Below, piece by piece: positions 19,327 to 34,431 of a stretch of DNA of 34,691 bases (its first letter is position 1; each line of letters starts with the position of its first letter). Origin of the DNA: an uncultured Bacteroidales bacterium. Its GTDB lineage: Bacteria; Bacteroidota; Bacteroidia; Bacteroidales; FEN-979. Under the pieces are notes generated by a model. The model made no database searches. It was not told the DNA's origin and worked only from the letters and a program-made list of their open reading frames with translations. The DNA lies in contig CAISJJ010000051.1 of NCBI GenBank assembly GCA_903885595.1, positions 1-34,691 of the forward strand, written 5' to 3'. The translations under genes and the position numbers were made by a program.

Positions 19327-20067
19327 GTGGAAACACCAACCGATCATATTACCCCGCAGCTTCCGATTCGCAGAAGCACCAATGTGTTCTCCGACATACG
19401 GTACTATTTTATACACCGGCCTGAGAAAAAGACACGGGTCAGGTTTAACTCGGAAGAAGACAGGCACAGATACAGCGAAAGCATCATGCAGCGCGTTGGC
19501 ATCGATGTTGACCAGTACAAGCTTCTGAATATTCACCGGATCGGCATCGAAGTACCTTCAAGTATCCTGTTTGATGACCTGATGAAATGGAACGGGGACT
19601 CCATCTGCTGGCCCAATCATATTGCCAGGGTTAACCTGCAGGATAATAAACTTGATAACATCCTGATCTCCCTTTTCGGTAAATCTGCGAAGTCACCGGG
19701 AGGGCATGATGGATTCTTTTCTTTCCGGTTTCCGCAACTCTTTATCATGGAGGCGCTCCGGATACAGGCTACTCCTTCCCCTATTGATACCGACAACGCC
19801 CGTTACCTGCTTTACAAATGCAGCGGCGGATACCCAATCGGGGTCTTCTCCATGTATGTGCGGAGTTCAATTCCTGAGCGCGGTGAATCAGCCATGTCAC
19901 AACTTTTCATCATGGTCAGCTTTAACTTCTACGGAAAAAAGTCGTTGTCAGGATTGAATCTGGTGAATAAAATATGGGAGGGGATTCATAACCGGGTAAC
20001 TTCTAATGTGGCTAACAGGTTTAAAAAGCTTTCTGAATGGAAGTTTGAACACTTAAAAGAACCCTGA
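19327..20067 (+). CDS. Protein of unknown function downstream of the nicotinamidase gene
   Basis: 246 residues from a GTG at 19327, 16 bases after the previous stop, so probably in the same transcript. The next in-frame Met is near residue 54, which makes the GTG start likely. No signal peptide or membrane helix is seen. Regions such as RSTNVFSDIRYYFIHRPEKK, GGHDGFFSFRFPQLFIMEAL and LYKCSGGYPIGVFSMYVRSS look like a mixed alpha/beta domain with ordered strands. I do not recognise the family. Linkage to NAD salvage may be coincidental. It is convergent with the glycoside hydrolase gene, 15 bases apart. Confidence 0.75.
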   Translation: METPTDHITPQLPIRRSTNVFSDIRYYFIHRPEKKTRVRFNSEEDRHRYSESIMQRVGIDVDQYKLLNIHRIGIEVPSSILFDDLMKWNGDSICWPNHIARVNLQDNKLDNILISLFGKSAKSPGGHDGFFSFRFPQLFIMEALRIQATPSPIDTDNARYLLYKCSGGYPIGVFSMYVRSSIPERGESAMSQLFIMVSFNFYGKKSLSGLNLVNKIWEGIHNRVTSNVANRFKKLSEWKFEHLKEP

Positions 20068-20082
20068 CCGGTTGCCTCCGCA

Positions 20083-22863
20083 TTACAGCCTGATGATTTT
20101 TGCCATTTCGACCCTGTCTCCCATTATCAACCGGATGATGTAAATACCCGCCTGTTTTTCTTCAATGGAAAACTCCTTTTTCCTGATTGCCTCCACCTCC
20201 TGCTTAATCACGATTTCTCCACGCATACCATTGATGAACATAGTCATGGCAGCCGGATCAACCCCGGGATTCAGTTCAAGGGTAAACTTGCCAATGGTTG
20301 GATTGGGATAGATTTTAAACATCCCGGCTTGAGATTGTATCGTTGGAGTTTGTTCAAAGCTGATATTTTCACCTTTTTTGGGTGGGGCAGTCACCGTGTT
20401 GCAAAATGCACCGGTATTTGTAATATAGGCCCGGAGCATCCCTTCATGCTCCACCTTAGTGCCCGGAAGAAGGATTATCTTCCGGCCGGCAATGAGGGTA
20501 GCGCTGCCACCCGATTGTACGAGAAATGTGGTACCATTCCCGGCCACATTAACGTCCTGACCAGCGTCATAGCATTTTGTTTCGCCATTTTCCAGAATAA
20601 CATTGTTCAAATTGTTTTGGGTCGGAACCACATGAATCCACTGAACTGGCGAAGCCTGGCCCGACCCACACAGGTTAGTACCTGAAACAACCAGGTTCCC
20701 TGAACGGGCCGTTGAAGAGAATGTTACAGTAATATTATGGGTATTGGCCCCAGCCGTGATGGTAGCGCCGGGAGGCAAGGTCCAGTTATACCCGGTCGCA
20801 TTTGCAACAGGGTTCACCCAGTAGTTAACGCCCGCCTGCCCTTGTTGCACAGCAAGCGTCCCGCTGACAGGACCCGCTGCACCAGGCAGCAGGCTGGTAT
20901 CTTGCATTGAAAGAATGAAAACCGGACGTTCGGTAACCCTGAAAGTAACAGTATTGTTTTGAATTTCGAGGACAGACTGATAGCCATCAGGCATCCCATA
21001 TTGAGGGACACTCATCCTTGCTGCAGCGGAAGGTCCGATATCAAGGGTGAAATCTCCGATGATTTTATTAGAAGAACTGGTACACCAAACTGCATATACA
21101 TTTGTAGAACAAGATGTTGAAGTAAATTTGTAAATATTGACTGAATCATGACCGGAGGTGATTTCGCTTTCAAATCGAAGTCCCTTCAGCTGGTTTTTCA
21201 TAGTGGAAACGTAATACCATGACTTTTTCGGTTCCTGTCCATACCATATTTCTGTTGTAAGCCCCGAGCTGTTGTACTTATTGGGATTGGCGGCATTCGC
21301 ATCACGGAGCATGAATACAAAGGCCTTATCAGCTCCTGCTGCAATAGCCTCAAGATACGATCGCAGGATCCACTGCCCCTGCACTTCGTAAATGTCATTT
21401 GTGTCAATGGCAACGGCAGCCTGTTCACTGTCGGGATTTGTATCATATCCAAATTCGGAGAGCCAGATTTCCTTGCCTGGCAAACCCGTATCTCTGAAAT
21501 TCACGATTTTTTTCAGCTTATGTTTCAGGCTGTCCTCCTCCGGACTTATACCATGGGCCCCGTTCTCAGAGTAATGATGGAAATTCAGGACATCGGCCGG
21601 GAACCCATTCTGACGGTTAAAATCACACCACAACTTCATGCACCGCACATATTCCAGGTTCAGGCTAGCCAGTCCGCCCATCACCATTTTTATAGCAGGA
21701 TCGGCCGATTTCATTCCTTTTCCGGTTCCCATTGTATTTTCATGGCCATCATAATCAGCGCTGCACATGGTCGACAACTCGTCAGGCGTAAAATATCCCT
21801 TTCGCGTTGTCCACCATTTGTCGGGTTCATTCCAGTTTTCAAGATAACCAGCCAGTCCGGTGCCGCTGATGAATGCCTGGTCGGGCCTGAGCTTCAGCAA
21901 GGAGGGATTTACGGCAGTCTGGCCATATCTGGCGGCAAACTGAAACATGTAATCCGCATGCTCAATGTAAGAATCAGGATCGAGGGGATCTTCATCCCGG
22001 CTGATGGGTTTATATTGCGCAAGAGAGTCATGAAAGCCTGTGATGTAGGGAGCACATCCCTGCAAATCGGGGCTTACAATTATACTGGTGTTTTTCAGTT
22101 GCTGATAAAATTGATCAAAATTAAATGCCCAGCCTGGTCCGCTTACCCAGCTTGGATTCCATGCATACTGATTGTTTGGATAGCCTTGGTAAGTCGTGTC
22201 AAGATTTCCTTCATCCCAGCCCCAGTTGTGGTATTCTCTTACATTTCCGACACAGTTGAGCTTGTCAACCGGGTCATCAATGAAACCATTTACGCCCATA
22301 AAATGATCAATATCTGGTTTTTCATGCAGTACCGGCAAGGGAGGAGGTGAAGTTTCTCCGACAGGCACACCGTAAAGTACAATCTCTGCCACCCGTGTGG
22401 AGGGGCTGGGATATCTGAACATCACGAACCTGGTGGTGTCACCCAGCGTTACTTCACGCCATGTGTTGTATGTGTTTAAAAGCATTGCAGCCTTTTTATT
22501 CCACAAGGAAGGATCACCAGTGTAAATAAAAATACTGTCACTGTCATAAGTGTCAAACAACCACAACGACATGAGATGGTATGTTTTTCCAAGGTCGACG
22601 ACGATCATGGCAGGATAATAAATATCGGCATTCACCCATCCGGGTGTAAAGACAGTTATAGGGGTGCCACCCTGGCCGGCTGCAGGATCATTGGCCAGAA
22701 CCTGTTCATCAACAAGCATTCCTGCTTCTCCCTGCGTCGAAAAGTTGTACATCATTTCAACGTTCAGCGAAAGTTTTGTCTGCCCGCAGGTAAAGCCGGG
22801 AATACAGGTTAAAATGCCCGACAGTGTCAGCAAATACAGACCGGTGATAATTCTGTATGACAT
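20083..22863 (-). CDS. T9SS-secreted glycoside hydrolase (clan A-like TIM barrel)
   Basis: 926 residues with signal peptide ending near TCGQ. Residues 30-168 form a carbohydrate-binding-like jelly roll (discoidin type). The TIM barrel (about 185-590) shows the clan GH-A pattern: acid/base E346 in LENWNEPDKWW and nucleophile E470 in EIWLSEFGYDT. This resembles GH39/GH5-type enzymes acting on beta-linked plant or algal glycans, but the exact family is uncertain. A PKD-like domain (about 660-745, YNWTLPPGATI...GTNLCGSG) and a further beta segment follow. A T9SS type A sorting domain (850-926, IYPNPTIGKFTL...GIYIIRLI) closes the protein. It is transcribed alone from a consensus -7 box at 22902-22895. 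Confidence 0.85.
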   Translation of the reverse strand: MSYRIITGLYLLTLSGILTCIPGFTCGQTKLSLNVEMMYNFSTQGEAGMLVDEQVLANDPAAGQGGTPITVFTPGWVNADIYYPAMIVVDLGKTYHLMSLWLFDTYDSDSIFIYTGDPSLWNKKAAMLLNTYNTWREVTLGDTTRFVMFRYPSPSTRVAEIVLYGVPVGETSPPPLPVLHEKPDIDHFMGVNGFIDDPVDKLNCVGNVREYHNWGWDEGNLDTTYQGYPNNQYAWNPSWVSGPGWAFNFDQFYQQLKNTSIIVSPDLQGCAPYITGFHDSLAQYKPISRDEDPLDPDSYIEHADYMFQFAARYGQTAVNPSLLKLRPDQAFISGTGLAGYLENWNEPDKWWTTRKGYFTPDELSTMCSADYDGHENTMGTGKGMKSADPAIKMVMGGLASLNLEYVRCMKLWCDFNRQNGFPADVLNFHHYSENGAHGISPEEDSLKHKLKKIVNFRDTGLPGKEIWLSEFGYDTNPDSEQAAVAIDTNDIYEVQGQWILRSYLEAIAAGADKAFVFMLRDANAANPNKYNSSGLTTEIWYGQEPKKSWYYVSTMKNQLKGLRFESEITSGHDSVNIYKFTSTSCSTNVYAVWCTSSSNKIIGDFTLDIGPSAAARMSVPQYGMPDGYQSVLEIQNNTVTFRVTERPVFILSMQDTSLLPGAAGPVSGTLAVQQGQAGVNYWVNPVANATGYNWTLPPGATITAGANTHNITVTFSSTARSGNLVVSGTNLCGSGQASPVQWIHVVPTQNNLNNVILENGETKCYDAGQDVNVAGNGTTFLVQSGGSATLIAGRKIILLPGTKVEHEGMLRAYITNTGAFCNTVTAPPKKGENISFEQTPTIQSQAGMFKIYPNPTIGKFTLELNPGVDPAAMTMFINGMRGEIVIKQEVEAIRKKEFSIEEKQAGIYIIRLIMGDRVEMAKIIRL

Positions 22864-22894
22864 ATTTATTTCAATGATGAATGATCTGGAGGTA

Positions 22895-22902
22895 CAAATT
22901 TA
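22895..22902 (-). promoter_or_regulatory. -7 box TAAATTTG of the glycoside hydrolase gene
   Basis: Exact TAnnTTTG on the minus strand, 31 bases upstream of the ATG at 22863. A clear -33 TTG is not seen. Confidence 0.45.
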
Positions 22903-22929
22903 AGGATAAAATTGTTAGTTCCCCTGATC

Positions 22930-22964
22930 TTTGATCACGCTGTCTGGTCTGTTTAGTATCTTTG
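22930..22964 (+). promoter_or_regulatory. Promoter of the STAS/kinase-fold gene
   Basis: TTTG (22930-22933), 23-base spacer, TATCTTTG (22957-22964). Both elements match the Bacteroidota consensus. Transcription would start near 22970, about 36 bases before the ATG at 23006, which rules against the longer frame from 22931. Confidence 0.65.
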
Positions 22965-23005
22965 TTCCCGTATGTTTTTATTTACCGACGCAAAAAATTT
23001 TGATT

Positions 23006-25234
23006 ATGGAAATTATCATAGATGAGAAAATCCGCTGTGTTAAACCAATCGGCAAACTGGATGCCAACAGCTGCAATGACCTCGATTCAGCCCTGGCGGC
23101 TTTACCCGAAAATAACCAGGATATCATTCTTGACATGTCCCGGTGTTCCTATGTTTCGAGCGCAGGGATCAGGATCCTGTTAAAAGCCAAAAAAAAACTG
23201 CTGGCCGGTAAAAACGAACTTTTTATAACCGGGATTGTTCCTGATGTTTTTCATGTACTCGAAATAGCCGGTCTGCACCGCGTTTTGCACTTTGAAGCCA
23301 CTGTGGAAGCTGCTTTGGCTGTCATTCAGGCCGGCAGCAAGAATAAACCGGATATCAAGGATTTATCCGCCGGCGATCATCAACTTGTTTACGAGCACAT
23401 GGCAACGGATGAGATTACGGGGCAACTATGCCTGAAATCCGATATCCTGAGTTATCAGGAACTCGGGTTTGCATTGGGGTTTGGATCATTTTCAGATACC
23501 TCAGGTGATAATACGGATTGTGATGACTTTTTTGTGACATTCGAAAATTGTTCCGGGATTTTACCATTAAACCCGGATATGCATCCCGACTTCAGGATCA
23601 TTTCCAATCCGGATAAAACTGGCCTGCCGGTTTGCGAGGCCATATCACTAGGGCACAACCCGACCGGCTCAATAAAATTAACCACGCCTGGAATATTGAC
23701 ATTCAAACAGTTGAACAATGCAATCGAAACGTTACGGGAAAAAACATTTTCGGCAAATTCTATACTCCTGCAGGTTTTGGCAAACCGGGAGAAAAACAAA
23801 CCTTCGCTGAGCCTGTTTATGCCAGCTGACGCTGGGCTGGCTGACCTGGTCAAAAATAATGGAATGGATCATTTTCAACATTTACTGACAGCCATTGCCG
23901 GGAAGAAGGATTTCATCGGAATCACTTTCCATCTGGCTGAATTGGATCTTTCAGAAGATGAAAAGTCACTCCAGGATATCATCAGGCGGTTGACTTTTGA
24001 GAATATCCTGGCCGTTGAGGCTTTCAACCCGGGCACATTTCTTGAAAATCCAATGATCTGGTTCTTCAATACCGGTAAATTCATTGATGGGAATTCGAAG
24101 AGGCTAATTATCGAGACCCGGCCCGGGTCTGTTTTTGAAACCCACAAGCAATTTCTGGCCAGAATGCTGTATGCCGATTCGTCGAAGCTGATGATCGAAC
24201 CTTTGCATGGCGGGTATTCGGCACAAACCTATCATGTGACCTCGTTCGACCATGAAGGCCGGAAAATGCGGCCTACCGTACTCAAGATCGCCCATCGTGA
24301 CCTGATTGCCAGGGAGTCGGAACGATGCCAGCAATATGCCCTTCCCTATATTTTTAACAACTGCGCCGTCGTGCTGGGTGCCGAACATTATGGCAAAACC
24401 ATGGCGCTGCGGTACAATTTCGTTGGAATCGGCGGTGAATCGAGCCACCTTAAATGGCTTACACACTATTACCATCAGTCGGACATTGCCTTCCTTGAAC
24501 CGCTTTTCGATAAAATATTCCTGCAAATCCTGAAACCCTGGTATGGCCAGCCTGTCAGTAAAACCATTTTCCCGTTCAGGGATCATGATCCGACTTTCAC
24601 ATTTTTTCCACATATTTATAAAACGGTTAGCGACTTGTTTTCAATCCAGGCAGATAAAAAACACATCTTTGTCCATGAATTGAACCGGGAAATTCTTAAC
24701 CCGTACTGGTTTCTTAAACATGAGTTTGCCAGGCGCCGCGACTGGAGCATGGAATATTTAACCGGGATTTGTCATGGCGACCTGAATATGCAGAATATTC
24801 TGCTGGATGAAAACATGAACGTTTATCTCATCGATTTTTCAGAAACAAAACCCAGGTCAATTATCTCCGATTTTGCCCGTCTGGAAGCCATTTTTCTGAT
24901 CGACAATGCACCCCTGGAAAATGAGAGCGATATGGCTGATTACCTTTATTTCATCAATGAATTTTATAAAAAAGAACACCTGAACGACATTCCTGATATT
25001 ACCTATACCGGGAAACATGATGAAAAGGTGAGTAAAAATGCTGCATTGACTTTAAAAATGAGGAAATACGCCCTCGACAGCGCCAAAGGCAATCCCGATC
25101 CAGTCCCCTATTATTTTGCCCTGCTTGAATGGATCTTACCGATTGTATGCTACTCCTCACTGCCTGTCTATCACAAACGCCTTTCGATGATTGTGTCTTC
25201 CATCTTGTGCGAAAAAGTCATGGCTGCCATTTAA
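23006..25234 (+). CDS. STAS domain fused to an APH-like kinase-fold protein
   Basis: 742 residues from the ATG at 23006. Residues 1-110 are a STAS (anti-sigma antagonist) domain with DMSRCSYVSSAGIRILL; S51/S52 is the usual phosphoserine site. Residues 115-385 are a middle domain I do not recognise; its layout (GFALGFGSFSD...FFVTFENC) faintly recalls STAS-linked PP2C-like modules. Residues 390-742 have the aminoglycoside/choline kinase fold: glycine loop LHGGYSAQTYHV (400-411), K427 (PTVLKI), E437 or E439, catalytic HGDLNMQN (590-597) and D610 in LIDFSE, all consistent with an active phosphotransferase. No membrane segment. It lies 81 bases before the RiPP precursor, separated by a promoter. 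It may regulate that system or only neighbour it. Substrate unknown. Confidence 0.8.
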   Translation: MEIIIDEKIRCVKPIGKLDANSCNDLDSALAALPENNQDIILDMSRCSYVSSAGIRILLKAKKKLLAGKNELFITGIVPDVFHVLEIAGLHRVLHFEATVEAALAVIQAGSKNKPDIKDLSAGDHQLVYEHMATDEITGQLCLKSDILSYQELGFALGFGSFSDTSGDNTDCDDFFVTFENCSGILPLNPDMHPDFRIISNPDKTGLPVCEAISLGHNPTGSIKLTTPGILTFKQLNNAIETLREKTFSANSILLQVLANREKNKPSLSLFMPADAGLADLVKNNGMDHFQHLLTAIAGKKDFIGITFHLAELDLSEDEKSLQDIIRRLTFENILAVEAFNPGTFLENPMIWFFNTGKFIDGNSKRLIIETRPGSVFETHKQFLARMLYADSSKLMIEPLHGGYSAQTYHVTSFDHEGRKMRPTVLKIAHRDLIARESERCQQYALPYIFNNCAVVLGAEHYGKTMALRYNFVGIGGESSHLKWLTHYYHQSDIAFLEPLFDKIFLQILKPWYGQPVSKTIFPFRDHDPTFTFFPHIYKTVSDLFSIQADKKHIFVHELNREILNPYWFLKHEFARRRDWSMEYLTGICHGDLNMQNILLDENMNVYLIDFSETKPRSIISDFARLEAIFLIDNAPLENESDMADYLYFINEFYKKEHLNDIPDITYTGKHDEKVSKNAALTLKMRKYALDSAKGNPDPVPYYFALLEWILPIVCYSSLPVYHKRLSMIVSSILCEKVMAAI

Positions 25235-25261
25235 ATGTTTAATGCTTTTCTTATAGATTTG
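25230..25261 (+). promoter_or_regulatory. Promoter of the module A precursor
   Basis: TTTA (25230-25233), 20-base spacer, TAGATTTG (25254-25261). The -7 box is exact and the -33 box is one base off. It overlaps the stop codon of the preceding gene and would give a leader of about 48 bases. Confidence 0.65.
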
Positions 25262-25315
25262 CACATTCGTTTTCAGACTCCGGATTATTAAACAAATTTA
25301 AATATCGAAAATTTT

Positions 25316-25531
25316 ATGAACGCAAAAGACTTAGCAAATGAATTGGGCGTTGATCCTGAAAAGGTTGATTTTACTATTGCAGATAAGGAATTAGATCATA
25401 TTTCCGGTGGCACTGGCAACAATTGCCTTGAAATGGGGTACAGCAGTCAACAAAGTACAAATTCAGGCGTTGGTACAAGTTGCACTGAGATCGGGTGCAT
25501 TAATCCCGACTGCACAAAGGCCGGTATGTGA
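25316..25531 (+). CDS. Candidate RiPP precursor peptide, double-glycine leader and Cys core (module A)
   Basis: 71 residues. The leader (1-32) is acidic and helical and ends with ADKELDHISGG, a typical double-glycine cleavage motif (G31-G32). The core (33-71) is rich in Cys, Ser, Thr, Asn and Gly, with cysteines C37, C56, C61 and C66. It holds a repeated unit, CLEMGY (37-42) and CTEIGC (56-61), then CINPDC (61-66). The stop overlaps the start of a radical SAM/SPASM enzyme (GTG at 25528, shared ATGTGA), a classic precursor-maturase arrangement. The likely product is a thioether-crosslinked peptide (sactipeptide or ranthipeptide class) after leader removal. The class and bioactivity are inferred; no named family is recognised for the core. 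Confidence 0.85.
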   Translation: MNAKDLANELGVDPEKVDFTIADKELDHISGGTGNNCLEMGYSSQQSTNSGVGTSCTEIGCINPDCTKAGM

Positions 25532-26856
25532 GCAGCAGATTGAAAATTCACACCGAGATCATTCATGATCATTACCTTGTAAGCTGCAGCGAAACAGGCG
25601 CCCTGAGCCTTTTTTCGCCGGCTGAGTATATTGCCTTTCATTATCTGCTGAGAAGGCCGGATGAGGATCAAAATGAAGCACTGCATGCATTGTTGCTGGA
25701 TTATGGGTGTGATGAAAGGACGATTTCTAGCTTTTCTGAACTTTTTCTAAAAAAAATCAGACAGCAGGGTTGGTTTAGAAACGACTTCCCTAATAGTGTT
25801 GCCCGGCAACTCGAGATGGCTTATTTAACCATAACGACCCACTGCAATCTGTCATGCGCCTATTGCTATGTTGGCGATGAAAGGCGTAATCCGGCATTTA
25901 TAATGAAGTTTGATGATGCAAAGATCATCATCAATAAGATTTCAAATTTCAATCCGCATGCCAGGGTAGCGATAACAGGAGGAGAACCCTTAACCCACCC
26001 CGAGATTTTTAAAATACTTGATTTACTGGATCAGTCAGGTTTAAAATTCACTTTGGGTACAAATGCGACATTGATTAATGAAACCTGTGCGAAAAAACTT
26101 AAAGCATATGACAATCTCCTTTTCGTTCAGGCCAGTCTTGATGGTATAACCCACGAAACCCACGAAATTACCAGGGGTAATACCTTTCACGAGACTATGA
26201 AGGGTATCAGGAACCTGATACAAGAAAAAGTAATGTTTGCGATCGCCCCCACGCTGCACGAAGGCAATCTGCATGAGGTGTATTACATTGCATGCCTGGC
26301 ATATGATAATGGCGGTTTTTTCGCACCCAACCATTTGCGGAAGTTTCCACATTCACTCCAGGTTCAATCCATTAACCTGCAACCAGCTTCCCTGCGAAAA
26401 TGCATTATTCAAACTTTTGAAAGAACAGGAAAGGAATACAATTCCAGATCCCGTACTCCGGAATGCGCTGACATTGACTGTGAAAACCTGCCGGAAATGC
26501 GATGTAAATTTGTTTGCGGTAATGGCTGGCAAACAGTTGATCTCGATTGGAACGGAGACGTTTATCCGTGTCACCTTTTAAGAGAAAAAGAATTTATTAT
26601 CGGGAATATCCTGACAGAAGAATTCACCGAAATTTTTGATCGCAGTAAAAACAGCCAGACTAGGGTGAAATCGTACGATATCCCAAAATGCAAGACTTGT
26701 CCATTCGTATCTACTTGCGCTGGAGGATGCAGGGCTTCTGCATTTTACACAAAGGGCACCCTTGCAGCAGAAGATGAATATTGTGAGATCCTCTTTAAAT
26801 TCGAGGTTGAAAAGTTGTTTCTGAAAAAAGGGATCACTTTTCAGTATCCGCTCTGA
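25528..26856 (+). CDS. Radical SAM/SPASM peptide maturase (module A)
   Basis: 442 residues from a GTG at 25528 that overlaps the precursor stop by 4 bases. Residues 1-85 resemble a PqqD-like RiPP recognition element that would bind the leader. The radical SAM core has C106-x3-C110-x2-C113 (THCNLSCAYCY) and GGEP at 151-154. The C-terminal SPASM domain is complete: C330-x12-G-x4-C348, C388-x2-C391-x5-C397-x3-C401 and C419, enough to hold two auxiliary 4Fe-4S clusters. Known relatives form thioether or carbon-carbon crosslinks on precursor peptides. The neighbouring Cys-rich precursor is the obvious substrate. The enzyme is cytoplasmic and needs anaerobic or protected conditions. No transporter follows it. 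Confidence 0.92.
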   Translation: MSSRLKIHTEIIHDHYLVSCSETGALSLFSPAEYIAFHYLLRRPDEDQNEALHALLLDYGCDERTISSFSELFLKKIRQQGWFRNDFPNSVARQLEMAYLTITTHCNLSCAYCYVGDERRNPAFIMKFDDAKIIINKISNFNPHARVAITGGEPLTHPEIFKILDLLDQSGLKFTLGTNATLINETCAKKLKAYDNLLFVQASLDGITHETHEITRGNTFHETMKGIRNLIQEKVMFAIAPTLHEGNLHEVYYIACLAYDNGGFFAPNHLRKFPHSLQVQSINLQPASLRKCIIQTFERTGKEYNSRSRTPECADIDCENLPEMRCKFVCGNGWQTVDLDWNGDVYPCHLLREKEFIIGNILTEEFTEIFDRSKNSQTRVKSYDIPKCKTCPFVSTCAGGCRASAFYTKGTLAAEDEYCEILFKFEVEKLFLKKGITFQYPL

Positions 26857-27218
26857 ATTGAATATGCCTTTCCAAAGCCCATGAATTCATCAAAGAATTC
26901 GATCATAACAGGTTGATTGTTTACCGGCAGAATCAAGCCATTTACCTATTTGAAAGACGATTAATAATAAAAATGGATAATACACCGGCGGAATCTACGC
27001 AGGCGGAACACTCAGAAAGACATTTACCATCAGCAATAAAATAACGAGTGTAACCTTCTGATATACTTCATCAGCTATCTTTCCGGATGAACGGACCAGC
27101 TGACGCCGGTCAAATGAATTTCTTTTTTCCTTTTTTGCATTTTTTACTAATTGATCCCAATCCCTGATATTGATTTGGGATTTTCTGCAAAAAGTTTATC
27201 TTTTCTTCCGAAAACCAA
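26857..27218. other. Intergenic region between RiPP modules A and B
   Basis: No convincing gene. A frame without a normal start is open from 26862 to a stop at 27042-27044; its only ATG (26973) gives 23 residues with no domain. A weak hairpin GACC...GGTC (27094-27111) followed by T-rich DNA could end the module A transcript. The 3' part is pyrimidine-rich. Confidence 0.5.
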
Positions 27219-27250
27219 TTTGGTTTCCCCTGTTTTCCGTATTAAATTTG
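27219..27250 (+). promoter_or_regulatory. Promoter of the module B operon
   Basis: TTTG (27219-27222), 20-base spacer, TAAATTTG (27243-27250): perfect match to the Bacteroidota -33/-7 consensus, 25 bases before the ATG at 27276. The three genes to 31180 are closely spaced or overlap and probably form one transcript. Confidence 0.8.
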
Positions 27251-27275
27251 TGTTGAGTTTAAACCATGGTACACC

Positions 27276-28292
27276 ATGAAAAAAGTGCCGGTGTTCTCTT
27301 CTCTCCTTTTATTCATAACAAGCATTCTCCCAGCCAATGGGCAAATCCTGTCAAAACCCGAGCCTGACGCCAGTTTTGACCGATCAAAAGGGATCATCAT
27401 CATCCAGGCTGCAAATAAGGGTTCCTTCTTCCTGGATGATCACATGATGACAAGCTTAAAGGAGGGAGACTCACTTTATATAATTAATGTTCCAGGCGGT
27501 CAGCACAATGCGAAGGTAATTTCCGACAGCATCGCTCCGACGTATAGTTTTATCCTTTCCCCGGGAAAAGTCCTGGAAATCAAAACCGGTAAAGATATGT
27601 TGCAGATCATGAACAGTCATTACAGCTTTGATGAAGTGGCGGAAAAAGTTAAAGGTAAGACGGTTTATTTCATCTCACGCCGGCATTATTTTAATATCAC
27701 ACAAACCTCCTTCGTTACCTTACAGGCCGGATCATCAGAATATAATCCTGTTATGTGGTTCAGATCAATATCTACAATCAACGGTTTCCAGGTTGTTCCT
27801 GGTTTTTGTATCGGCGCCGGCGTCACGTATAACAACTATGATATTCCTGTTTTCTATGGGTACAACTATTACGCAGATCCTCAGTGCAGTCAACTTGCCG
27901 TATTAAAAAATGTTTCTTACCTGCCGGTTTATTTTGATGTGCGGACGCATTTCTCCTCCGGGAGGGTTGCTCCCTTTATCAAGTTTGACATAGGGTACAA
28001 CATTTTAATCTCAAAAAAAAGCATGCAGGTGTATAACTATAGTTATTGGCCTTCACCTGATAATCCCCCGTATACATTTAAACTGGAAGGAGGAGGCTTG
28101 TATCTGTCACCTGGCATCGGGTTAAGGGTTGCAATCAACAAACTGATACAGGTTATTTTTACAGCCGAATATACGTACGATTCGTCGAAAAGCACAATGG
28201 CTTCGGATGGAGAGCAAAACGGATCGGGGTCCGGTTATCATAAACACCTGCATTGTTTTAAGTTCAACATTGGAATCGGATTTCAAAAATAA
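27276..28292 (+). CDS. PEGA-like domain plus outer-membrane beta-barrel protein (module B)
   Basis: 338 residues with signal peptide MKKVPVFSSLLLFITSILPANG. Residues about 35-115 read as a PEGA-like beta-sandwich (KGIIIIQAANKGSFFLDDHMM...VPGGQHNAKV). Residues about 140-338 alternate hydrophobic and polar strands with aromatic girdles and end in a Phe-rich strand (FKFNIGIGFQK), typical of an 8-stranded outer-membrane barrel. It leads the module B operon, 36 bases before the lipoprotein gene. It may anchor the lipoprotein or help export or immunity; none of these roles is shown. No named family is recognised beyond PEGA and barrel. Confidence 0.75.
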   Translation: MKKVPVFSSLLLFITSILPANGQILSKPEPDASFDRSKGIIIIQAANKGSFFLDDHMMTSLKEGDSLYIINVPGGQHNAKVISDSIAPTYSFILSPGKVLEIKTGKDMLQIMNSHYSFDEVAEKVKGKTVYFISRRHYFNITQTSFVTLQAGSSEYNPVMWFRSISTINGFQVVPGFCIGAGVTYNNYDIPVFYGYNYYADPQCSQLAVLKNVSYLPVYFDVRTHFSSGRVAPFIKFDIGYNILISKKSMQVYNYSYWPSPDNPPYTFKLEGGGLYLSPGIGLRVAINKLIQVIFTAEYTYDSSKSTMASDGEQNGSGSGYHKHLHCFKFNIGIGFQK

Positions 28293-28328
28293 CCGGTATT
28301 CATCAGTCATAATATTAAACCTGTGAAT

Positions 28329-30026
28329 ATGAAACTTTACGCTTCTCCGTTCCGACATTTTTCCCTTCCTTTGTTACTGGCGGTTTGCTTATCTCTCCTT
28401 ATTTTCAACGGGTGTTATTACTATAAAGTAAACACAAAAACAGGGCTCACCCCTGAGGAATTACGCTGGGCTGATTTCAACAAAAAATACCTGATCCTTC
28501 ATGTGGGGCCTTCTGCCTGGAATCTTACAAAGCCTGAAATAACCGATGAACGTTTTTCAGGGTCTCTCTTTGCTTTACCAGGCACCCGTTTCCAATATCA
28601 AAACACCTATCCTGAGGGTACTAACCGGTATAAACGAAAATTCCAGGATATTATAATGGACCAGACCCACATTTATGTCAGGGATTCCCTTTTTCCTGAT
28701 TTAACTGCCGGGGGTAGTATAACCCTGCCATTTTCTGCCATTGATAAAACAGAGAATTATCAAAAGGCCCAGGGAGCGACCAGAGCTTCCTGGGCAATAT
28801 CGTTAACCCTTGGGTCGATTGCAACAGTTGTTGCGGTGGTAGGGATTGTAGCAGCTTTAACTTCATGCCCCATGGTCTATATCCAGAATGATCGGGAAAT
28901 GACATTTGCCGGGGAGATTTTCGGAGGAGCAGTCTATTCCTCCCTTGAACGCCATGATTATCTGCCCCTGCCTGCAATAAAGCCCTCCGGCAACCGGTAT
29001 ACCCTGAAAATCGCCAACAAACTTGCTGAGGTCCAGCATATCAATCTTGCTGAATTGTGGATTGTAAATCACCCGGGAGATGTGATGGTTTTGGCTGACC
29101 GCCATGGTTCTGTTCATTCCATTAAAAACCTCAATCAGCCTGTTGAAGCCTATTCCTCTTCCAACATTGACCTGCTGCCCCAGGTAAGCGCCCAGGATCA
29201 GAAGGGTTTCCTTTTCGATGAGGAGCCTTCCCAAACAGGCGATACAAATGCCTTTAATTCTGTTGTCATGACTTTTCCCGCTCCCGGTTCAGCAGTGACA
29301 GGTAAATTAGTGCTGAAAGCGGGTAATTCATTGTGGGGAGATTATACTTATGGTGAATTCATGAAGTTATTTGGCAACAAATATGGCAAATGGATCCGGA
29401 TGCAGGGTAAAGAACCGGCGCAAAAAAACACGCAATGGAAACTTGACCAGTGTTTGGTCATGATGGTATACCTTGAAACGAAAACAGGATGGCAGTTTGT
29501 CGACTACTTTGACCTTATCGGACCTGTTGGCGACAGGGAGATGATCATGCCGGTAACGCTTGACCAAGCGCTTTTTTCAAAGAATCCGCAGGACGACCGG
29601 GTGATCAGGATCAAACTCGTATCAGGTTTCAAATTCTGGGAACTCGATTATGCCGCTATGGATTTCTCAGAAAACATCCCGGTAACAATGCACTCCATTC
29701 AACCTCTTTCAGCGACTACCGAAATGGGGAAGGATGTCGGACAACTCATCTCAAAAAACGATAAAGACTATTATATTCAGAAGAATACAGGAGATGAGGC
29801 GTTGGTCGTTTACCAGGATGTTGAGGAAATCCCTGGCAAGAAAAAGACCGTTTTTTTGCATGCCAGGGGATATTATGAGCATGTCAGGGACTATCAGGGT
29901 CCACCTGATAAAGCACAACTCGTAACCTTCGGAAACCCGGGAAAACTCAGCCGGTTTTCGTACGTCAATTACCAGGAATTCACTAAAGCAAAAGCCGTAC
30001 TGGTTACTGATCCCGTTCTGCCATGA
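28329..30026 (+). CDS. Large lipoprotein with one membrane helix (module B)
   Basis: 565 residues from the ATG at 28329; a GTG at 28323 is in frame but less likely. The signal ends in LLIFNGC, so C29 is the probable lipid-bearing cysteine (loose Bacteroidota lipobox). Residues 154-178 form a hydrophobic helix (SLTLGSIATVVAVVGIVAAL), followed by SCPMVYI and a segment with FAGEIFGGAVYSSLERHDYLPLP. I recall similar stretches in uncharacterised Bacteroidota lipoproteins but cannot name a family. The last 180 residues are beta-rich. The stop overlaps the radical SAM start (ATGA, 30023-30026), so the products are probably made together. Its role in a RiPP system is unknown; surface display, processing or immunity are possibilities. 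Confidence 0.7.
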   Translation: MKLYASPFRHFSLPLLLAVCLSLLIFNGCYYYKVNTKTGLTPEELRWADFNKKYLILHVGPSAWNLTKPEITDERFSGSLFALPGTRFQYQNTYPEGTNRYKRKFQDIIMDQTHIYVRDSLFPDLTAGGSITLPFSAIDKTENYQKAQGATRASWAISLTLGSIATVVAVVGIVAALTSCPMVYIQNDREMTFAGEIFGGAVYSSLERHDYLPLPAIKPSGNRYTLKIANKLAEVQHINLAELWIVNHPGDVMVLADRHGSVHSIKNLNQPVEAYSSSNIDLLPQVSAQDQKGFLFDEEPSQTGDTNAFNSVVMTFPAPGSAVTGKLVLKAGNSLWGDYTYGEFMKLFGNKYGKWIRMQGKEPAQKNTQWKLDQCLVMMVYLETKTGWQFVDYFDLIGPVGDREMIMPVTLDQALFSKNPQDDRVIRIKLVSGFKFWELDYAAMDFSENIPVTMHSIQPLSATTEMGKDVGQLISKNDKDYYIQKNTGDEALVVYQDVEEIPGKKKTVFLHARGYYEHVRDYQGPPDKAQLVTFGNPGKLSRFSYVNYQEFTKAKAVLVTDPVLP

Positions 30027-31180
30027 AAAAACAAGGGATATATAATGTCACAGGGTTTCAGGCCAGGATGATCAATTCAGTCTCCGACCTTTTTTATCTC
30101 TGGAAAGCAATAAAAGAGTACAGATCAATCAGTTCAGCCATTAAAGTAATGACGGAACTCTATGCCCTGAGGAAGGTAATCGCAGGGTACCGGATATACA
30201 GGATCGTGAAAGCAAACGGCCGCTATTACTGGACTATGCACCTGCCTGGTTTCCCATCTTCGGCGCTTACCAACCACGTATCGGGTGAGATGAACCGCAT
30301 CAGTCCGGTACATTCAAAAAACAACCGGCTGAGTGTCCTGTTTCTCGGGATCACAAAAAAATGCCCATTACAATGCCTCCACTGTTACGAATGGGATGCG
30401 CTGAACCGGAAGGATACATTGTCACTGCCAGATTTAAAAAAGATTGTCAGCACATTTCAGGAGACCGGTGTCAGCCATATTCAGCTGGGTGGCGGAGAGC
30501 CCATGACAAGGTTTGAGGAGATGGTCGAGCTGATAAAAGATATCAAACCGGGGGCCGATATCTGGATCTCAACCTGCGGGTTCAACCTGTCGGAAGAAAA
30601 GGCGCTGATATTGAAGAAGGCCGGGCTTACCGGTGTTGCAATCAGCCTTGATCATTTTGAGGCCGGTCTTCACAATGCATTCCGGGGTCATCCCAAAGCA
30701 TTTGACTGGGCAATGACCGCCACGGAAAACTGCCGGAAAGCAGGGCTTATCACCTGCTGGTCAATCTGCGTGACCCGTGAATTTATCAGCCGGGAAAACC
30801 TTTTCCAATATGCTCTGGCAGCAAAAAGAAACAAGGTGACCTATATCCAGCTTTTCGAGCCCATGCAGGCCGGCCGTTATTCGGGGAAAGATGTGAGGCT
30901 GACTGAAACCCAGGTTAAAATACTTGAGGATTTTTACCTTGAACTGAACACCTCACCAAAGTACAGGGATTTTCCCCTTGCAGTGTATCTCGGGGTTTAC
31001 CAGCGCCGTATCGGGTGCCTGGGATCGGGAAACAGGTATGTTTATGTTGATACGGATGGAAATATTCAATCATGCCCCTTCTGCCGGACAGATAAAAAAA
31101 TGGAAGTGAATGAGCATCCTGCCGGGGAACTTCTTCAGTGGATCAGTAATGAACGGTGCAGTCAAAGGATCTTCAGTTAA
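30023..31180 (+). CDS. Radical SAM enzyme with a short auxiliary-cluster tail (module B)
   Basis: 385 residues. The N-terminal 100 residues are not a normal PqqD domain and contain many basic residues (RKVIAGYRIYRIVKANGRYYW). The core has C114-x3-C118-x2-C121 (KKCPLQCLHCY) and GGGEP at 156-160. The tail has C332, C351, C354 and C379 with YVDTDGNIQSCPFC, a reduced SPASM-like site for perhaps one auxiliary cluster. It overlaps the lipoprotein stop by 4 bases. Its 3' end overlaps by 8 bases the end of the NHLP precursor gene on the other strand, which makes that precursor a candidate substrate. The chemistry (epimerisation, crosslinking or methylation-type) cannot be read from sequence. Confidence 0.88.
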   Translation: MKKQGIYNVTGFQARMINSVSDLFYLWKAIKEYRSISSAIKVMTELYALRKVIAGYRIYRIVKANGRYYWTMHLPGFPSSALTNHVSGEMNRISPVHSKNNRLSVLFLGITKKCPLQCLHCYEWDALNRKDTLSLPDLKKIVSTFQETGVSHIQLGGGEPMTRFEEMVELIKDIKPGADIWISTCGFNLSEEKALILKKAGLTGVAISLDHFEAGLHNAFRGHPKAFDWAMTATENCRKAGLITCWSICVTREFISRENLFQYALAAKRNKVTYIQLFEPMQAGRYSGKDVRLTETQVKILEDFYLELNTSPKYRDFPLAVYLGVYQRRIGCLGSGNRYVYVDTDGNIQSCPFCRTDKKMEVNEHPAGELLQWISNERCSQRIFS

Positions 31181-31496
31181 AACACCCAATGGCTCCATGG
31201 GATTCTTCATTGGGATTATTATTTCCCTCGTAACCACCTGACACTAATTCCAGATCTGCCTCCGTTAACTCGCCATCCTCCTTGAAGGCTGGATTTGGCG
31301 GAAGTACCAGGTAAAAAGTTTGGGCATCCTCCTCAACGACATATATATTAACCGAATCGGGTATTTTCATCCTGATCTCCTGCTCCAGCACATGCTTCGG
31401 ATCGTCACTCAGTTGTCTTCTGAAATCTGCATCCTTCATCGCTTTTTCGATGATTTGCTGTTCAATCTGTTTCCTGATTTCCTGTGAATCGTTCAT
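31173..31496 (-). CDS. NHLP-type (proteusin-like) RiPP precursor peptide (module B)
   Basis: 107 residues from the ATG at 31496. The leader (1-88) matches the nitrile-hydratase-like leader family: KDADFRRQLSDDPKHVLEQE (21-40), IPDSVNIYVVEED and FYLVLPPNP. It ends in ELTEADLELVSGG, with cleavage expected after G88. The 19-residue core YEGNNNPNEESHGAIGCFN is polar with Asn repeats and one Cys. Family knowledge: NHLP leaders precede proteusins, whose cores are changed by radical SAM epimerases and other enzymes. The gene faces the module B radical SAM gene and shares 8 bases at its 3' end. No ribosome site is obvious. Its promoter region abuts a truncated XRE-type gene fragment. Confidence 0.88.
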   Translation of the reverse strand: MNDSQEIRKQIEQQIIEKAMKDADFRRQLSDDPKHVLEQEIRMKIPDSVNIYVVEEDAQTFYLVLPPNPAFKEDGELTEADLELVSGGYEGNNNPNEESHGAIGCFN

Positions 31497-31551
31497 GATT
31501 ATGGTTTGCTTAAAGTACAAAGGGTTCCGGCAAAGTTGGTGATTTTTTTAA

Positions 31552-31656
31552 TCATAATTGTTTTACGATGGTCATGAAAGCAAAAACCTGTTCCACAATG
31601 TCTTTGGTCGCTTTCAGATCATCTTCAACAATCCTTACATTAACCCCTTTCACCAT
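31552..31656 (-). pseudogene. Truncated copy of an XRE-type regulator gene
   Basis: A 34-codon frame from the ATG at 31656 to a TGA at 31554-31552 reads ...VRIVEDDLKATKDIVEQVFAF.... This resembles the gene at the right edge (HVCEDDLKVTLDIAQFFAF), and the DNA is also similar (for example CTTTCAG.TCATCTTCA in both). The helix-turn-helix part is missing and a TAG lies in frame upstream, so it is a remnant. It sits directly upstream of the NHLP gene. A short C-rich tract (about 31699-31726) lies beyond it. Confidence 0.6.
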
Positions 31657-31813
31657 GTAACTTGAACCATCGACTATCTGATTCAAAGAATTGAAAAACT
31701 AACGCCCCCGCCCCAACCTCTCCAACATGCACAACTTCAACACAACTCTCTCAATAAAGTGTTATTACAAAAATTAGTGAAAGAAGAAAGGTGAGGAATA
31801 AAAAAATCAAACT

Positions 31814-31843
31814 ATTGAATTACCATTTACGTTATTAATTTTG
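31814..31843 (+). promoter_or_regulatory. Promoter before the truncated TPR gene
   Basis: ATTG (31814-31817), 18-base spacer, TAATTTTG (31836-31843), an exact -7 box, 22 bases before the ATG at 31866. Confidence 0.55.
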
Positions 31844-31865
31844 CTCTCCCTATCCGGGCTGTAGT

Positions 31866-32156
31866 ATGAAACCTTTATTCTTCATCATCATTTTTGTTTG
31901 GTTTGTTATCCTGCCATGGAATATTGTGTTTTCAGGCAGGCCAGGGGTTGACAGCCTTCATGCTGAACTCTTCAAGACAGATGATATCACTAAAAAGGTT
32001 AATCTCTACCTGTTGATTTCAAAAGTATTCGAAGAGACTAACCCCGATTCGGCGATACTTTTCTGGAAGGTGGCTCAAAATCTCGCCCGGCGGATGAAAA
32101 GCGATAAGCTGCTTGCGGCGGTTTATACAGTAACAACACTGTTTGTTACACCATAA
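31866..32156 (+). pseudogene. Truncated N-terminus of a TPR sensor-type protein
   Basis: 96 residues with a signal peptide or membrane helix (MKPLFFIIIFVWFVILPWNI) followed by VDSLHAELFKTDDITKKVNLYLLISKVFEETNPDSAILFWKVA (split here: positions 38-80). That start resembles the N-terminus of the TPR kinase at 4295 (DSLKAELKHAEG...NSDPDLALSYAF). Only about one helical repeat remains before the stop, whereas TPR kinases of this type have many. It is either a degraded gene with a surviving promoter or a short secreted helical protein. I favour a remnant. Confidence 0.5.
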
Positions 32157-32157
32157 T

Positions 32158-32190
32158 TTTAGGATTATTTATATTTCGGGATTAGGTTTG
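32158..32190 (+). promoter_or_regulatory. Promoter of the small gene at 32198
   Basis: TTTA (32158-32161), 21-base spacer, TAGGTTTG (32183-32190). The -7 box is exact. Transcription would start almost at the ATG at 32198, so that ATG would be leaderless; ATGs at 32216 or 32228 are alternatives. Confidence 0.45.
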
Positions 32191-32197
32191 CGAAAAA

Positions 32198-32389
32198 ATG
32201 TTACAGAATAATTGTATGACCGGAGAAATGGATACCAATGATAATCCTGACAACTGGCGATCTGATCTTGCTGATCTTATCAGAGAAAAAAAGGCGGAGA
32301 GAGAACTCCTGAAAAAAATCAGGGAATCAGACATACTCTCAGAACATGCTGAAGACCCGGCATTTTATTCCGGCAATAAGCTTATTTGA
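32198..32389 (+). CDS. Small charged protein of unknown function
   Basis: 63 residues from 32198, or 53 from the ATG at 32228. The C-terminal half is a charged helix (DLADLIREKKAERELLKKIR) and the protein is soluble with no signal. It has its own consensus promoter and lies 45 bases before the SBBP-type gene, so the two may be cotranscribed. I recognise no family. It could be a small regulatory or antitoxin-like helix, but nothing supports a specific role. Confidence 0.45.
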   Translation: MLQNNCMTGEMDTNDNPDNWRSDLADLIREKKAERELLKKIRESDILSEHAEDPAFYSGNKLI

Positions 32390-32434
32390 ACTGTCAATCA
32401 ACCATTAAATTATAACACTGAAAAAGAGGATTTT

Positions 32435-34075
32435 ATGAAAAAACAGATAATTTTATTCGCATTATTTCTGGTCGGTTTACAATGTTTTTCTCAGACGTCT
32501 GCCTGGTCGTGGGCACAAAATGCCGGTGGTGCAGAGGGCGATTGGTCATATGCAGTAAAAACTGACGAAAACGGGAATGTGTATGTTGCCGGATCCTTTA
32601 AATCTGCAACTATTACATTCGGAACATTTACTTTAACCAATACTGCCGTCGGCTCCAATGATCTTTTTCTGGTAAAATACGATACTGATAAAAATGTGCT
32701 CTGGGCCATCAGCAATGGTGGAAGCGGGTCGGATGTTGCAACAGCCATTGATGTGGATGAATCAGGTTACATTTATCTCGGCGGAAATTTTTCTTCACCA
32801 ACCATTAATTTCGGGGGAGGAATAATAATTACAAGGACCGGTGGATCGGACGCATTTTTTGTAAAATACAACAGCACCGGGATGGCGGTTTGGGCGAAAA
32901 AGGGAGGCGGCAGCAGCAACGAGGAGGTTGAGGATATCAATGTTGATTTAAATGGAAATTTATATGGTGCAGGATATTTTGAATCTGCCAGCTGCATATT
33001 TGGAACCATAACGCTCACCAACCATGGTCACTACGATGGTTTCCTCGTGAAATATGATATTTCAGGAAATGAAATCAGTGCCAACGGTTATGGAGGTTCA
33101 ATGTGGGACGACTGCAAAGGGATTATTTCGGATAATTCAGGGAATATTTACCTGACAGGATACTACCGTTCCGATATTACTTTTGGTGATACAACACTGG
33201 TAAACAATACCGGCGATGCGCACCTGTTTGTTGTTAAATATGATAATTCCGGTGAATATCTCTGGGCGAAAAATTCTGCCGGGACATGGGAGATTGGTAA
33301 TGAGATTGCACTTGATCAGTCAGGCGGCATTTATATTACCGGCTTTTTCCAGGGAACAACGATGTCAGGTGGCAACTTGTTATTAAGTAATAACGGGCCC
33401 TCTGGCACTTCAGATTTTTTTATCCTGAAATTTGACCAGGACGGGAATCCGCAATGGCTTACCGGAGGCGGCAACTCAGATTACGAAGAGGGCAGGGCCG
33501 TTGATATTGACCACAATGGCGATGTGTTTGCCGGGGTTTATTTTAATTCCACCACAATTACAATTGGTTCATCAACAATAGTCAATAACGGAGCCGGTGA
33601 CATTTTACTGCTAAAATACCTGAACGACGGTAATTTTAGCTGGGTTCTGCATGCCGGTGGTGATGCCGATGACCAAATACATTCACTTAGTTCAGGTAAT
33701 CAAGGTAAGAATTATATCTGCGGCAGTTTCTCGTCGTCAACCCTTTCCTTTGGTTCTGAAACTTTGACAAATACAGGGGTTGCGGATATGTTTGTGGCAG
33801 AGGCGGACGATTTTTTAACAGATATCCGGCCAGAAACACTTGCTTCGGAAGCCATTGCTTATCCCAACCCTGCGTCTGAATTCATTACGATAAAAACAAA
33901 CCGTTCAATGACCGGTAAAGTCTATTTCCTGGTTAATGCAATTGGTACCAGGGTTTACCATGGAATAATAAAAGATGAACCCGTTTTCATGGATATAAGC
34001 ATGCTAAACGATGGCCTCTACTATCTGGTATTTCCGGATGATGAAGGGATGAATACAAAATTTATAAAAATGTAG
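32435..34075 (+). CDS. SBBP-type beta-propeller T9SS protein
   Basis: 546 residues. MKKQIILFALFLVGLQCFSQ is the signal peptide and AGAGG lies 7 bases before the ATG. The body has about nine repeats with the SBBP pattern: DENGNVYVAGSF or SGNIYLTGYY, then TITFGTFTLTN, then DLFLVKYDTDKN.LW. These form propeller blades often seen in secreted Bacteroidota proteins of unknown function. The C-terminal 75 residues are a T9SS type A sorting domain (AIAYPNPASEFITIKT...LNDGLYYLVF). Likely exposed at the cell surface. It is the fifth complete T9SS protein in this window. Confidence 0.9.
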   Translation: MKKQIILFALFLVGLQCFSQTSAWSWAQNAGGAEGDWSYAVKTDENGNVYVAGSFKSATITFGTFTLTNTAVGSNDLFLVKYDTDKNVLWAISNGGSGSDVATAIDVDESGYIYLGGNFSSPTINFGGGIIITRTGGSDAFFVKYNSTGMAVWAKKGGGSSNEEVEDINVDLNGNLYGAGYFESASCIFGTITLTNHGHYDGFLVKYDISGNEISANGYGGSMWDDCKGIISDNSGNIYLTGYYRSDITFGDTTLVNNTGDAHLFVVKYDNSGEYLWAKNSAGTWEIGNEIALDQSGGIYITGFFQGTTMSGGNLLLSNNGPSGTSDFFILKFDQDGNPQWLTGGGNSDYEEGRAVDIDHNGDVFAGVYFNSTTITIGSSTIVNNGAGDILLLKYLNDGNFSWVLHAGGDADDQIHSLSSGNQGKNYICGSFSSSTLSFGSETLTNTGVADMFVAEADDFLTDIRPETLASEAIAYPNPASEFITIKTNRSMTGKVYFLVNAIGTRVYHGIIKDEPVFMDISMLNDGLYYLVFPDDEGMNTKFIKM

Positions 34076-34147
34076 TCTTTTGAACTTCAACATGTTGAAC
34101 GCCCTTCAAAAGGATAACCCAAAATCCTTGGCAACTTAATCACAAAT

Positions 34148-34180
34148 AAAAAAACCACTCACAAATTTTCGTGCAAGTGG
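34148..34180 (-). terminator. Terminator-like hairpin for the right-edge gene
   Basis: Read leftward, CCACT-tg-CAC pairs with GTG-AGTGG (34180-34155) around an AT loop, followed by a run of T (34154-34148). It would end transcription of the XRE gene about 250 bases after its stop, and may also act weakly rightward after the SBBP gene. Confidence 0.55.
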
Positions 34181-34315
34181 CTCATTTTCAGTCTCCTCGC
34201 CAGTATGAGTAAGAGGGGAACCAGTACTATCCAGATTAAACGGATAGATTGATTATATTATTGGTTTACATATACTTATATCATACATGGTTTAACCGGT
34301 CAATGGTTTTTGAGT

Positions 34316-34343
34316 AACCAGATTAACCCGGTTTTACCTGGTT
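34316..34343. repeat. 28-bp imperfect palindrome in an AACC/GGTT-rich region
   Basis: AACCAGATTAACCC is followed by its near complement, with 11 of 14 pairs matching. More GGTT/AACC copies, including GGTTTAACC, lie at 34285-34310. The gap 34076-34431 holds no gene; it also has a perfect 14-bp palindrome TTCAACATGTTGAA at 34086-34099 and an AAGGAT/ATCCTT hairpin at 34110-34129. The region could hold an operator for the XRE regulator or be a remnant of a mobile end. Confidence 0.4.
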
Positions 34344-34431
34344 TATGAGACAAATCTGAGACAATTATTTTCCTGACATGACCCGTTTTTTTCACCTGGT
34401 ACCTCGTCAGATATGAAATTTTTTTCCTTTC

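Follow-up and report, generated by a model that had tools for sequence, protein, structure and literature searches.

A radical SAM/SPASM maturase and its putative precursor peptide with Cys-x-x-x-Gly core modules in an uncultured Bacteroidales bacterium

What is made by a small gene that runs directly into the gene of a radical S-adenosylmethionine (SAM) enzyme? The question is raised by a two-gene locus at positions 25,316 to 26,856 of contig CAISJJ010000051.1 from an uncultured Bacteroidales bacterium (GTDB FEN-979; assembly GCA_903885595.1); the whole analysed stretch, 34,691 nucleotides long, is referred to as the window. The two genes almost certainly form a precursor-maturase pair for a ribosomally synthesized and post-translationally modified peptide (RiPP). 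The initial annotation had described two open reading frames (ORFs) overlapping by 4 bases and a double-glycine leader ending in ELDHISGG; both are as it described, and precursor and maturase recur in two other species. The precursor ORF (25316-25531, + strand) starts with ATG and encodes 71 amino acids, MNAKDLANELGVDPEKVDFTIADKELDHISGG / TGNNCLEMGYSSQQSTNSGVGTSCTEIGCINPDCTKAGM, with the Gly-Gly at residues 31-32. The overlap with the maturase ORF (25528-26856, + strand) is GTGA at 25528-25531.

25316-25411, + strand: leader-coding region of the precursor, residues 1-32, ending in Gly-Gly (three-homologue comparison)
25412-25528, + strand: core-coding region of the precursor, residues 33-71, with three CxxxG modules and one extra Cys; the stop codon occupies 25529-25531
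25528-26856, + strand: radical SAM/SPASM maturase, 442 amino acids, first start codon GTG (ORF, Pfam and NCBIfam scans)

A search of 149 related genomes with the maturase (E 1e-20) matched four: the window genome itself (G000, with the pair on contig C51), G015 (74% identity), G017 (57%) and G054 (29%), the last of which is a different radical SAM enzyme and was omitted from the family counts. The G017 locus is denoted L011, and locus L001 was taken as belonging to one genome with G015 (contig C169). A profile built from the three precursors (E 0.01) matched 3 of the 149 genomes, the same three that carry the maturase at 57% identity or above; these three match by construction, and the information lies in the 146 genomes giving no match. 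The pair is present in two further species of the genus, and in all three carriers the precursor lies immediately 5' of the maturase. The window and L001 both show the GTGA overlap (L001 also has an open ATG 18 bases further upstream), and in G017 a gap of 170 bases separates the two genes. Within the leader, ELG, PEK, KEL and GG are invariant across the three homologues. Between the window and L001, the proportions of nonsynonymous (pN) and synonymous (pS) differences were 0.29 and 0.63 for the whole precursor, indicating purifying selection, 0.21 and 0.55 for the leader, and 0.14 and 1.00 for the last 17 codons. That pN is lower than pS argues that the peptide is translated and that its C-terminal modules are held. 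Thus, conservation of the small frame in maturase-bearing relatives, a check that the initial annotation had proposed, came out in favour of the pair.

The core is distinguished by a repeated Cys-x-x-x-Gly (CxxxG) motif, which adds to what the initial annotation had noted.

25424-25438, + strand: CxxxG module 1, C37-G41, CLEMG (motif count)
25481-25495, + strand: CxxxG module 2, C56-G60, CTEIG (also CTEIG in L001)
25511-25525, + strand: CxxxG module 3, C66-G70, CTKAG (CTKAG in L001, CTKTG in L011)

The corresponding modules are CGSVG, CTEIG and CTKAG in L001, and CGEVG and CTKTG in L011. The cores of the window, L001 and G017 contain four, three and two cysteines, of which three, three and two, respectively, have Gly at +4. 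Eight of the nine core cysteines thus lie within CxxxG, a count reached by none of 200,000 shuffles of the pooled cores, although this pooled value overstates the case because the three cores are homologous and hence not independent. Taken singly, the cores gave +4 Gly p values of 0.007, 0.009 and 0.044, the offset having been picked after looking; across all offsets between -8 and +8, 0 of 20,000 shuffles brought any non-Cys residue to eight occurrences. NHLP precursor cores used as controls (three of G017 origin, including a fragment, and one from the window) had 2 of 12 cysteines in CxxxG (Fisher p 0.002 versus the precursor cores).

The maturase carries the elements expected of a radical SAM/SPASM enzyme.

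25528-25779, + strand: predicted N-terminal RiPP recognition element (RRE), about residues 1-84 (AlphaFold2 model and Foldseek)
25843-25866, + strand: CX3CX2C motif of the SAM [4Fe-4S] cluster, C106/C110/C113 (Pfam, alignment)
26515-26784, + strand: SPASM seven-Cys region, C330-C419 (Pfam, alignment)

A radical SAM enzyme with a complete seven-cysteine SPASM pattern had been read from the sequence in the initial annotation, and both domains were confirmed by Pfam (Radical_SAM, 77.4 bits against a cut-off of 29.5; SPASM, 44.2 against 21.5). The SPASM pattern is C330-X12-G-X4-C348, C388-X2-C391-X5-C397-X3-C401 and C419; the ten motif cysteines, together with C326 and C61 of the maturase, are invariant in the three homologues, and the other six cysteines vary. 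A PqqD-like leader-binding region had also been suggested. No Pfam or other sequence-family match for such a domain was obtained at the N-terminus, but the fold is consistent with the suggestion: an AlphaFold2 model of residues 1-92, built with the three homologues (predicted local distance difference test, pLDDT, 86), has three strands (7-12, 15-20, 25-29) followed by three helices (31-41, 48-58, 63-79), and its first nine PDB matches in Foldseek, each of them weak, all come from three distinct leader-binding RRE proteins, namely TbiB1 with leader (5v1v, 5v1u), CteB (5why, 5wgg) and a leader-bound lasso B1 protein (6jx3). Structure 5WGG is identified as CteB in the available passages of PMC10352776. 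The model of the full-length maturase was unusable (pLDDT 50).

At E 0.1, 85 NCBIfam models matched the window maturase, and none of the best 25 reached its cut-off. The sactipeptide maturase StsB (NF045574), which we take to be the streptosactin maturase GggB, was the best among the matches listed (132 bits, cut-off 625); heme b synthase scored 117.1 (cut-off 500), NirJ2 113.3 (500), WgkB 111.6 (650) and mycofactocin 108.3 (265). The PapB model (NF047865, cut-off 340) gave 88.4 bits with the window maturase and 96.5 with the G017 homologue. A role of the maturase as a defence gene was rejected: the PADLOC viperin models (64.4 and 54.7 bits) cover only the radical SAM core, residues 100-232, a match read as common to the superfamily. 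The maturase is best read as a peptide- or protein-modifying radical SAM/SPASM enzyme, for which no closely related characterised enzyme was found.

For the precursor, no curated model among those listed reached its cut-off in the NCBIfam and Pfam scans of the window sequence. Two precursors were scored with the double-glycine leader model TIGR01847 (cut-off 15.7 bits), giving 14.9 for the window and 17.3 for G017. With the GG-Bacteroidales model TIGR04149 (cut-off 25) the G017 precursor scored 16.0 and the window precursor was unlisted at E 0.1, and no match to the NHLP precursor model TIGR03793 (cut-off 50.9) was listed for 25316-25531. Thus, the system fits the general radical SAM/SPASM RiPP kind, the curated models for StsB, PapB, TIGR04149 and NHLP do not claim it, and the double-glycine leader model is split between the two precursors. 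That the initial annotation did not recognise a named class in the core agrees with these scans, in which only Pfam Radical_SAM and SPASM exceeded their cut-offs (for the maturase, among the best 25 of 85 NCBIfam models).

No exporter was seen beside the pair in the window or in L001. Among 43 genomes of the family (19 candidates per genome scored), seven proteins in six genomes scored above the NHLM_ABC1 cut-off; a group below it (about 794-818 bits, including G000:C357) was left unaligned. The proteins G000:C27, G015:C167 and G017:C116, each with a C39 peptidase, form a clade at 80-84% identity to the first, and the four other exporters above the cut-off (G000:C152, G008, G029 and G039) stand at 60-62%. 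This one clade thus occurs in exactly the three carriers, which by chance placement in 43 genomes would happen once in 12,341 (8.1e-5), a value that is uncorrected for kinship and concerns a clade singled out after the carriers were seen. An rpoB tree (see below) does not unite the carriers in one clade, so that descent within a single clade does not explain the co-occurrence.

In G017 the pair is linked to a lanthipeptide cluster. One strand of L011 carries LanM (867.3 bits, cut-off 304), a 356-amino-acid protein, NHLP precursors, the precursor and maturase of the pair, and a squalene-cyclase-like protein; the opposite strand carries an HlyD-like protein (65.3 bits against a cut-off of 156.2), NHLM_ABC1 with its C39 peptidase (976.4, cut-off 853.3) and NHLM_ABC2 (802.5, cut-off 709.4). 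Both this link and the exporter elsewhere in the genome go beyond the initial annotation. At about 9834-10130 (- strand) of L011, one NHLP precursor gives two adjoining partial matches (profile positions 2-33 and 33-77), as if frameshifted. The window genome has a LanM gene of its own on contig C152 (835.7 bits, cut-off 304) and 13 NHLP-leader matches on 11 contigs, 10 of them above the cut-off. One lies in the window (31173-31520, - strand; 85.3 bits with TIGR03793, cut-off 50.9), and the others are on C210, C221, C288, C252, C164, C436, C247, C148, C71 and C366. These dispersed precursors and the LanM gene presumably represent a prochlorosin-style lanthipeptide precursor set.

Taken together, these data suggest the following pathway. 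The N-terminal RRE of the maturase would bind the precursor leader, and the radical SAM centre, aided by the SPASM clusters, would link cysteines of the core to the Gly four residues later. With Gly as acceptor the bond would necessarily be to Calpha, since glycine has no beta carbon. Five-residue thioether rings would result, arranged in tandem and un-nested (C37-G41, C56-G60 and C66-G70), with two hydrogens lost for each. Cleavage after the Gly-Gly would then remove the leader, and the NHLM transporter with a C39 peptidase from contig C27 of the window genome would export the product, which might serve an antagonistic or a signalling role. It is likely that the RRE binds the leader and that a C27-type NHLM system carries out the export. 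For the crosslink itself, tandem, un-nested Cys-Gly Calpha thioethers as predicted from the CxxxG motif, the balance tips slightly in favour, and we consider the explanation as a whole, from the leader-bound maturase through thioether rings and Gly-Gly cleavage to NHLM export, to be reasonably probable. More tentatively, and with somewhat less than an even chance of being right, the pair may define a new class of radical SAM thioether peptides with tandem Cys-x-x-x-Gly modules, movable and dependent on a dedicated NHLM exporter encoded elsewhere, which in one species sits in a lanthipeptide island where one exporter would serve two thioether RiPPs of differing chemistry.

Besides the non-independence of the pooled cores and the choice of the exporter clade in hindsight, several points weigh against this pathway. 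The structural matches of the N-terminal model are weak (E 0.05-0.55, template modelling scores by query of 0.47-0.53), none reaching E 0.001. The StsB score of the window maturase, 132 against a cut-off of 625, is little above those of the heme-maturation and mycofactocin models, and the G017 maturase scores highest with WgkB (127.3 bits, cut-off 650) and next highest with StsB (118.1, cut-off 625). WGK enzymes form Lys-Trp linkages, according to the passages available from PMC13361665. Among solved structures, a sequence profile placed the anaerobic sulfatase-maturating enzyme 4k37 first (76.9 bits), followed by SkfB (6efn, 50.5) and CteB (5wgg, 43.7). These mixed best matches (StsB, WgkB and a sulfatase-maturating enzyme) mean that family likeness leaves the chemistry unfixed. 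Furthermore, C61 of the window precursor lies outside CxxxG, in CINPD (Cys-X3-Asp), and is replaced by Tyr in L001. Finally, the exporter is on a different contig from the pair in G000 (C27 versus C51) and G015 (C167 versus C169), both draft assemblies.

One rival reading is a ranthipeptide, in which the thioether would reach a side-chain carbon of Glu, Asp, Asn or Lys near the Cys, with PapA-like CX3D/E spacing and a purely structural role for Gly. The C61-x3-D65 segment matches CX3D, CTE and [DE]CTK are partly conserved in the cores, and the PapB model gives its 88.4 bits with the window maturase. However, that score is far from the cut-off of 340, only C61 fits the PapA-type Cys-X3-Asp/Glu motif as CxxxD, and Gly, which offers no side-chain carbon, stands at the fixed +4 position from eight of the nine cysteines, a regularity that no non-Cys residue reaches at any of the offsets examined in the 20,000 shuffles. 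We therefore regard a ranthipeptide as unlikely.

Slightly less probable still is a different radical change, such as a C-C or Cys-aromatic crosslink, an epimerisation, or the tailoring of a peptide already ringed by LanM. The G017 pair does follow LanM and NHLP precursors with all of them on the same strand, the window genome has its LanM gene on C152, and WgkB is the top model for the G017 maturase. Yet no LanM-like ORF was seen in the ORF lists of window positions 20000-34691 or of the 13 kb of L001, the first core Cys of L001 has no preceding core Ser or Thr, and no aromatic residue is common to the three cores. A further rival, in which the maturase acts on something else and the small ORF is no substrate of it, could appeal to the shortness of this ORF and its lack of a family match over cut-off. 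It is very improbable, because the ORF is co-conserved with the maturase in the three species, is under purifying selection, has a double-glycine leader and shows the start/stop overlap in two of the three loci. Thioether formation within the CxxxG modules accordingly stays the reading that we prefer.

At 1e-30 the maturase was found in none of the 43 family genomes beyond the three carriers. Wider searches, made in genome samples with at most four candidates scored per genome, returned the window genome only: 1 of 395 in the phylum (E 1e-60), 1 of 393 in the order (1e-38) and 1 of 395 in the class (1e-25). Among viral contigs there were 56 pattern matches, none of them to a relative, and 192 plasmid records matched, all below 60% identity (20.6-26.1% in the ten listed). 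On an rpoB tree of 17 of the 19 genus genomes (two yielded no rpoB sequence, and the second, partial copy in G009 was omitted), the three carriers stand in separate places. Three changes are forced over the starred branches, for which one gain and two losses are possible, and the carrier label shows no clustering beyond that of shuffled labels. The pair has different flanks in each carrier; this, together with the absence of the maturase from the other family genomes, points to horizontal movement or repeated loss.

A consensus promoter had been assigned to the pair in the initial annotation. No sigma-70-like promoter was listed before 25316 in a scan of 25150-27100, which qualifies this claim; what stands is a TAnnTTTG box, which we take to be the Bacteroidota -7 promoter consensus, at an equal distance from the precursor in the window and L001. 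The window has 31 matches to this box on its two strands.

25254-25261, + strand: TAnnTTTG box, TAGATTTG, placed 54 nt upstream of the precursor's ATG (same box and distance in L001)

Several neighbouring genes were considered as further parts of the system. Directly upstream of the precursor, 22931-25234 (+ strand) encodes an N-terminal STAS domain fused to a TCAD9/APH-like kinase region; it was rejected, as L001 has a DegT-family aminotransferase (Pfam, 284.9 bits) and G017 has NHLP genes upstream. The squalene-cyclase-like gene was not favoured as a dedicated partner: three of the 43 family genomes have it (G017, G008 and G029), it is absent from G000 and G015, and is not specific to the pair, because G008 and G029 carry it with no maturase match. 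In these two genomes it is on the same contig as the NHLM exporter, about 4-9 kb away. Its product resembles the C-terminal part of squalene-hopene cyclase and has about 345-378 amino acids (L011 6594-7631, - strand; G008:C3; G029:C55, all NHLM exporter contigs). A second radical SAM gene at 30023-31180 (+ strand), which has no Pfam SPASM match and converges with the gene of the NHLP precursor, was likewise rejected as a partner: at 1e-40 it occurs in 4 of 43 genomes (G000, G017, G008 and G012), is absent from G015 and is on another contig in G017. Its homologues in G017, G008 and G012 are 45-48% identical. In G054, the different radical SAM enzyme (L005 1223-2556, - strand) overlaps a 76-amino-acid ORF ending in QGQCGCVMGCLGG; the two may be a further RiPP pair, one in which the precursor follows the enzyme.

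To our knowledge, few radical SAM RiPPs have been characterised in Bacteroidota. The pair apparently represents an undescribed, rare branch of these RiPPs: no radical SAM system with CxxxG modules was found in a full-text search of the open literature, with a prior listing in subscription papers, such as the radical SAM RiPP atlas, being possible, and the passages available of PMC8172795, PMC10352776, PMC13361665, PMC8326336 and PMC9413430 describe no such system. As a small system of two genes, the pair is directly testable, and the natural series of three, three and two modules suits tests of processivity. If the CxxxG prediction is true, un-nested sactionine chemistry would be extended to a new spacing as well as to another phylum. 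Moreover, the likely exporter is not adjacent to this RiPP pair, a situation that cluster-based genome mining would overlook.

The GG-Bacteroidales RiPPs of TIGR04149 share the double-glycine leader and a radical SAM maturase, but the precursors stay below that model's cut-off of 25. NHLP/NHLM systems and LanM lanthipeptides are alike in the NHLM_ABC1-type exporter, present in all three carriers, and in the stretch shared in G017, whereas the precursor described here has a short double-glycine leader, no NHLP leader match and a radical SAM maturase of its own. In the parts of PMC9413430 available, the PapA/PapB (freyrasin) ranthipeptides provide the precedent for X3 spacing (CX3D/E), with tandem Cys-X3-acceptor motifs and a radical SAM maturase; the acceptor there is Asp or Glu, and here it is predicted to be Gly. 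The precedent for Gly as an acceptor in such rings is streptosactin, for which passages of PMC8172795 and PMC13361665 report un-nested S-Calpha rings (Cys25-Ser28 and Cys31-Gly34) made by GggB, the alpha-thioethers being formed in C-to-N order. GggA/GggB likewise combine a small precursor with a radical SAM/SPASM maturase and, so far as those passages go, yield small un-nested Cys rings in which Gly is among the acceptors. The Bacteroidota pair differs in its double-glycine leader, in CxxxG rather than CxxS/CxxG motifs, in having up to three modules, in a maturase at 132 of the 625 bits required by StsB, and in presumed C39/NHLM export instead of the protease GggC.
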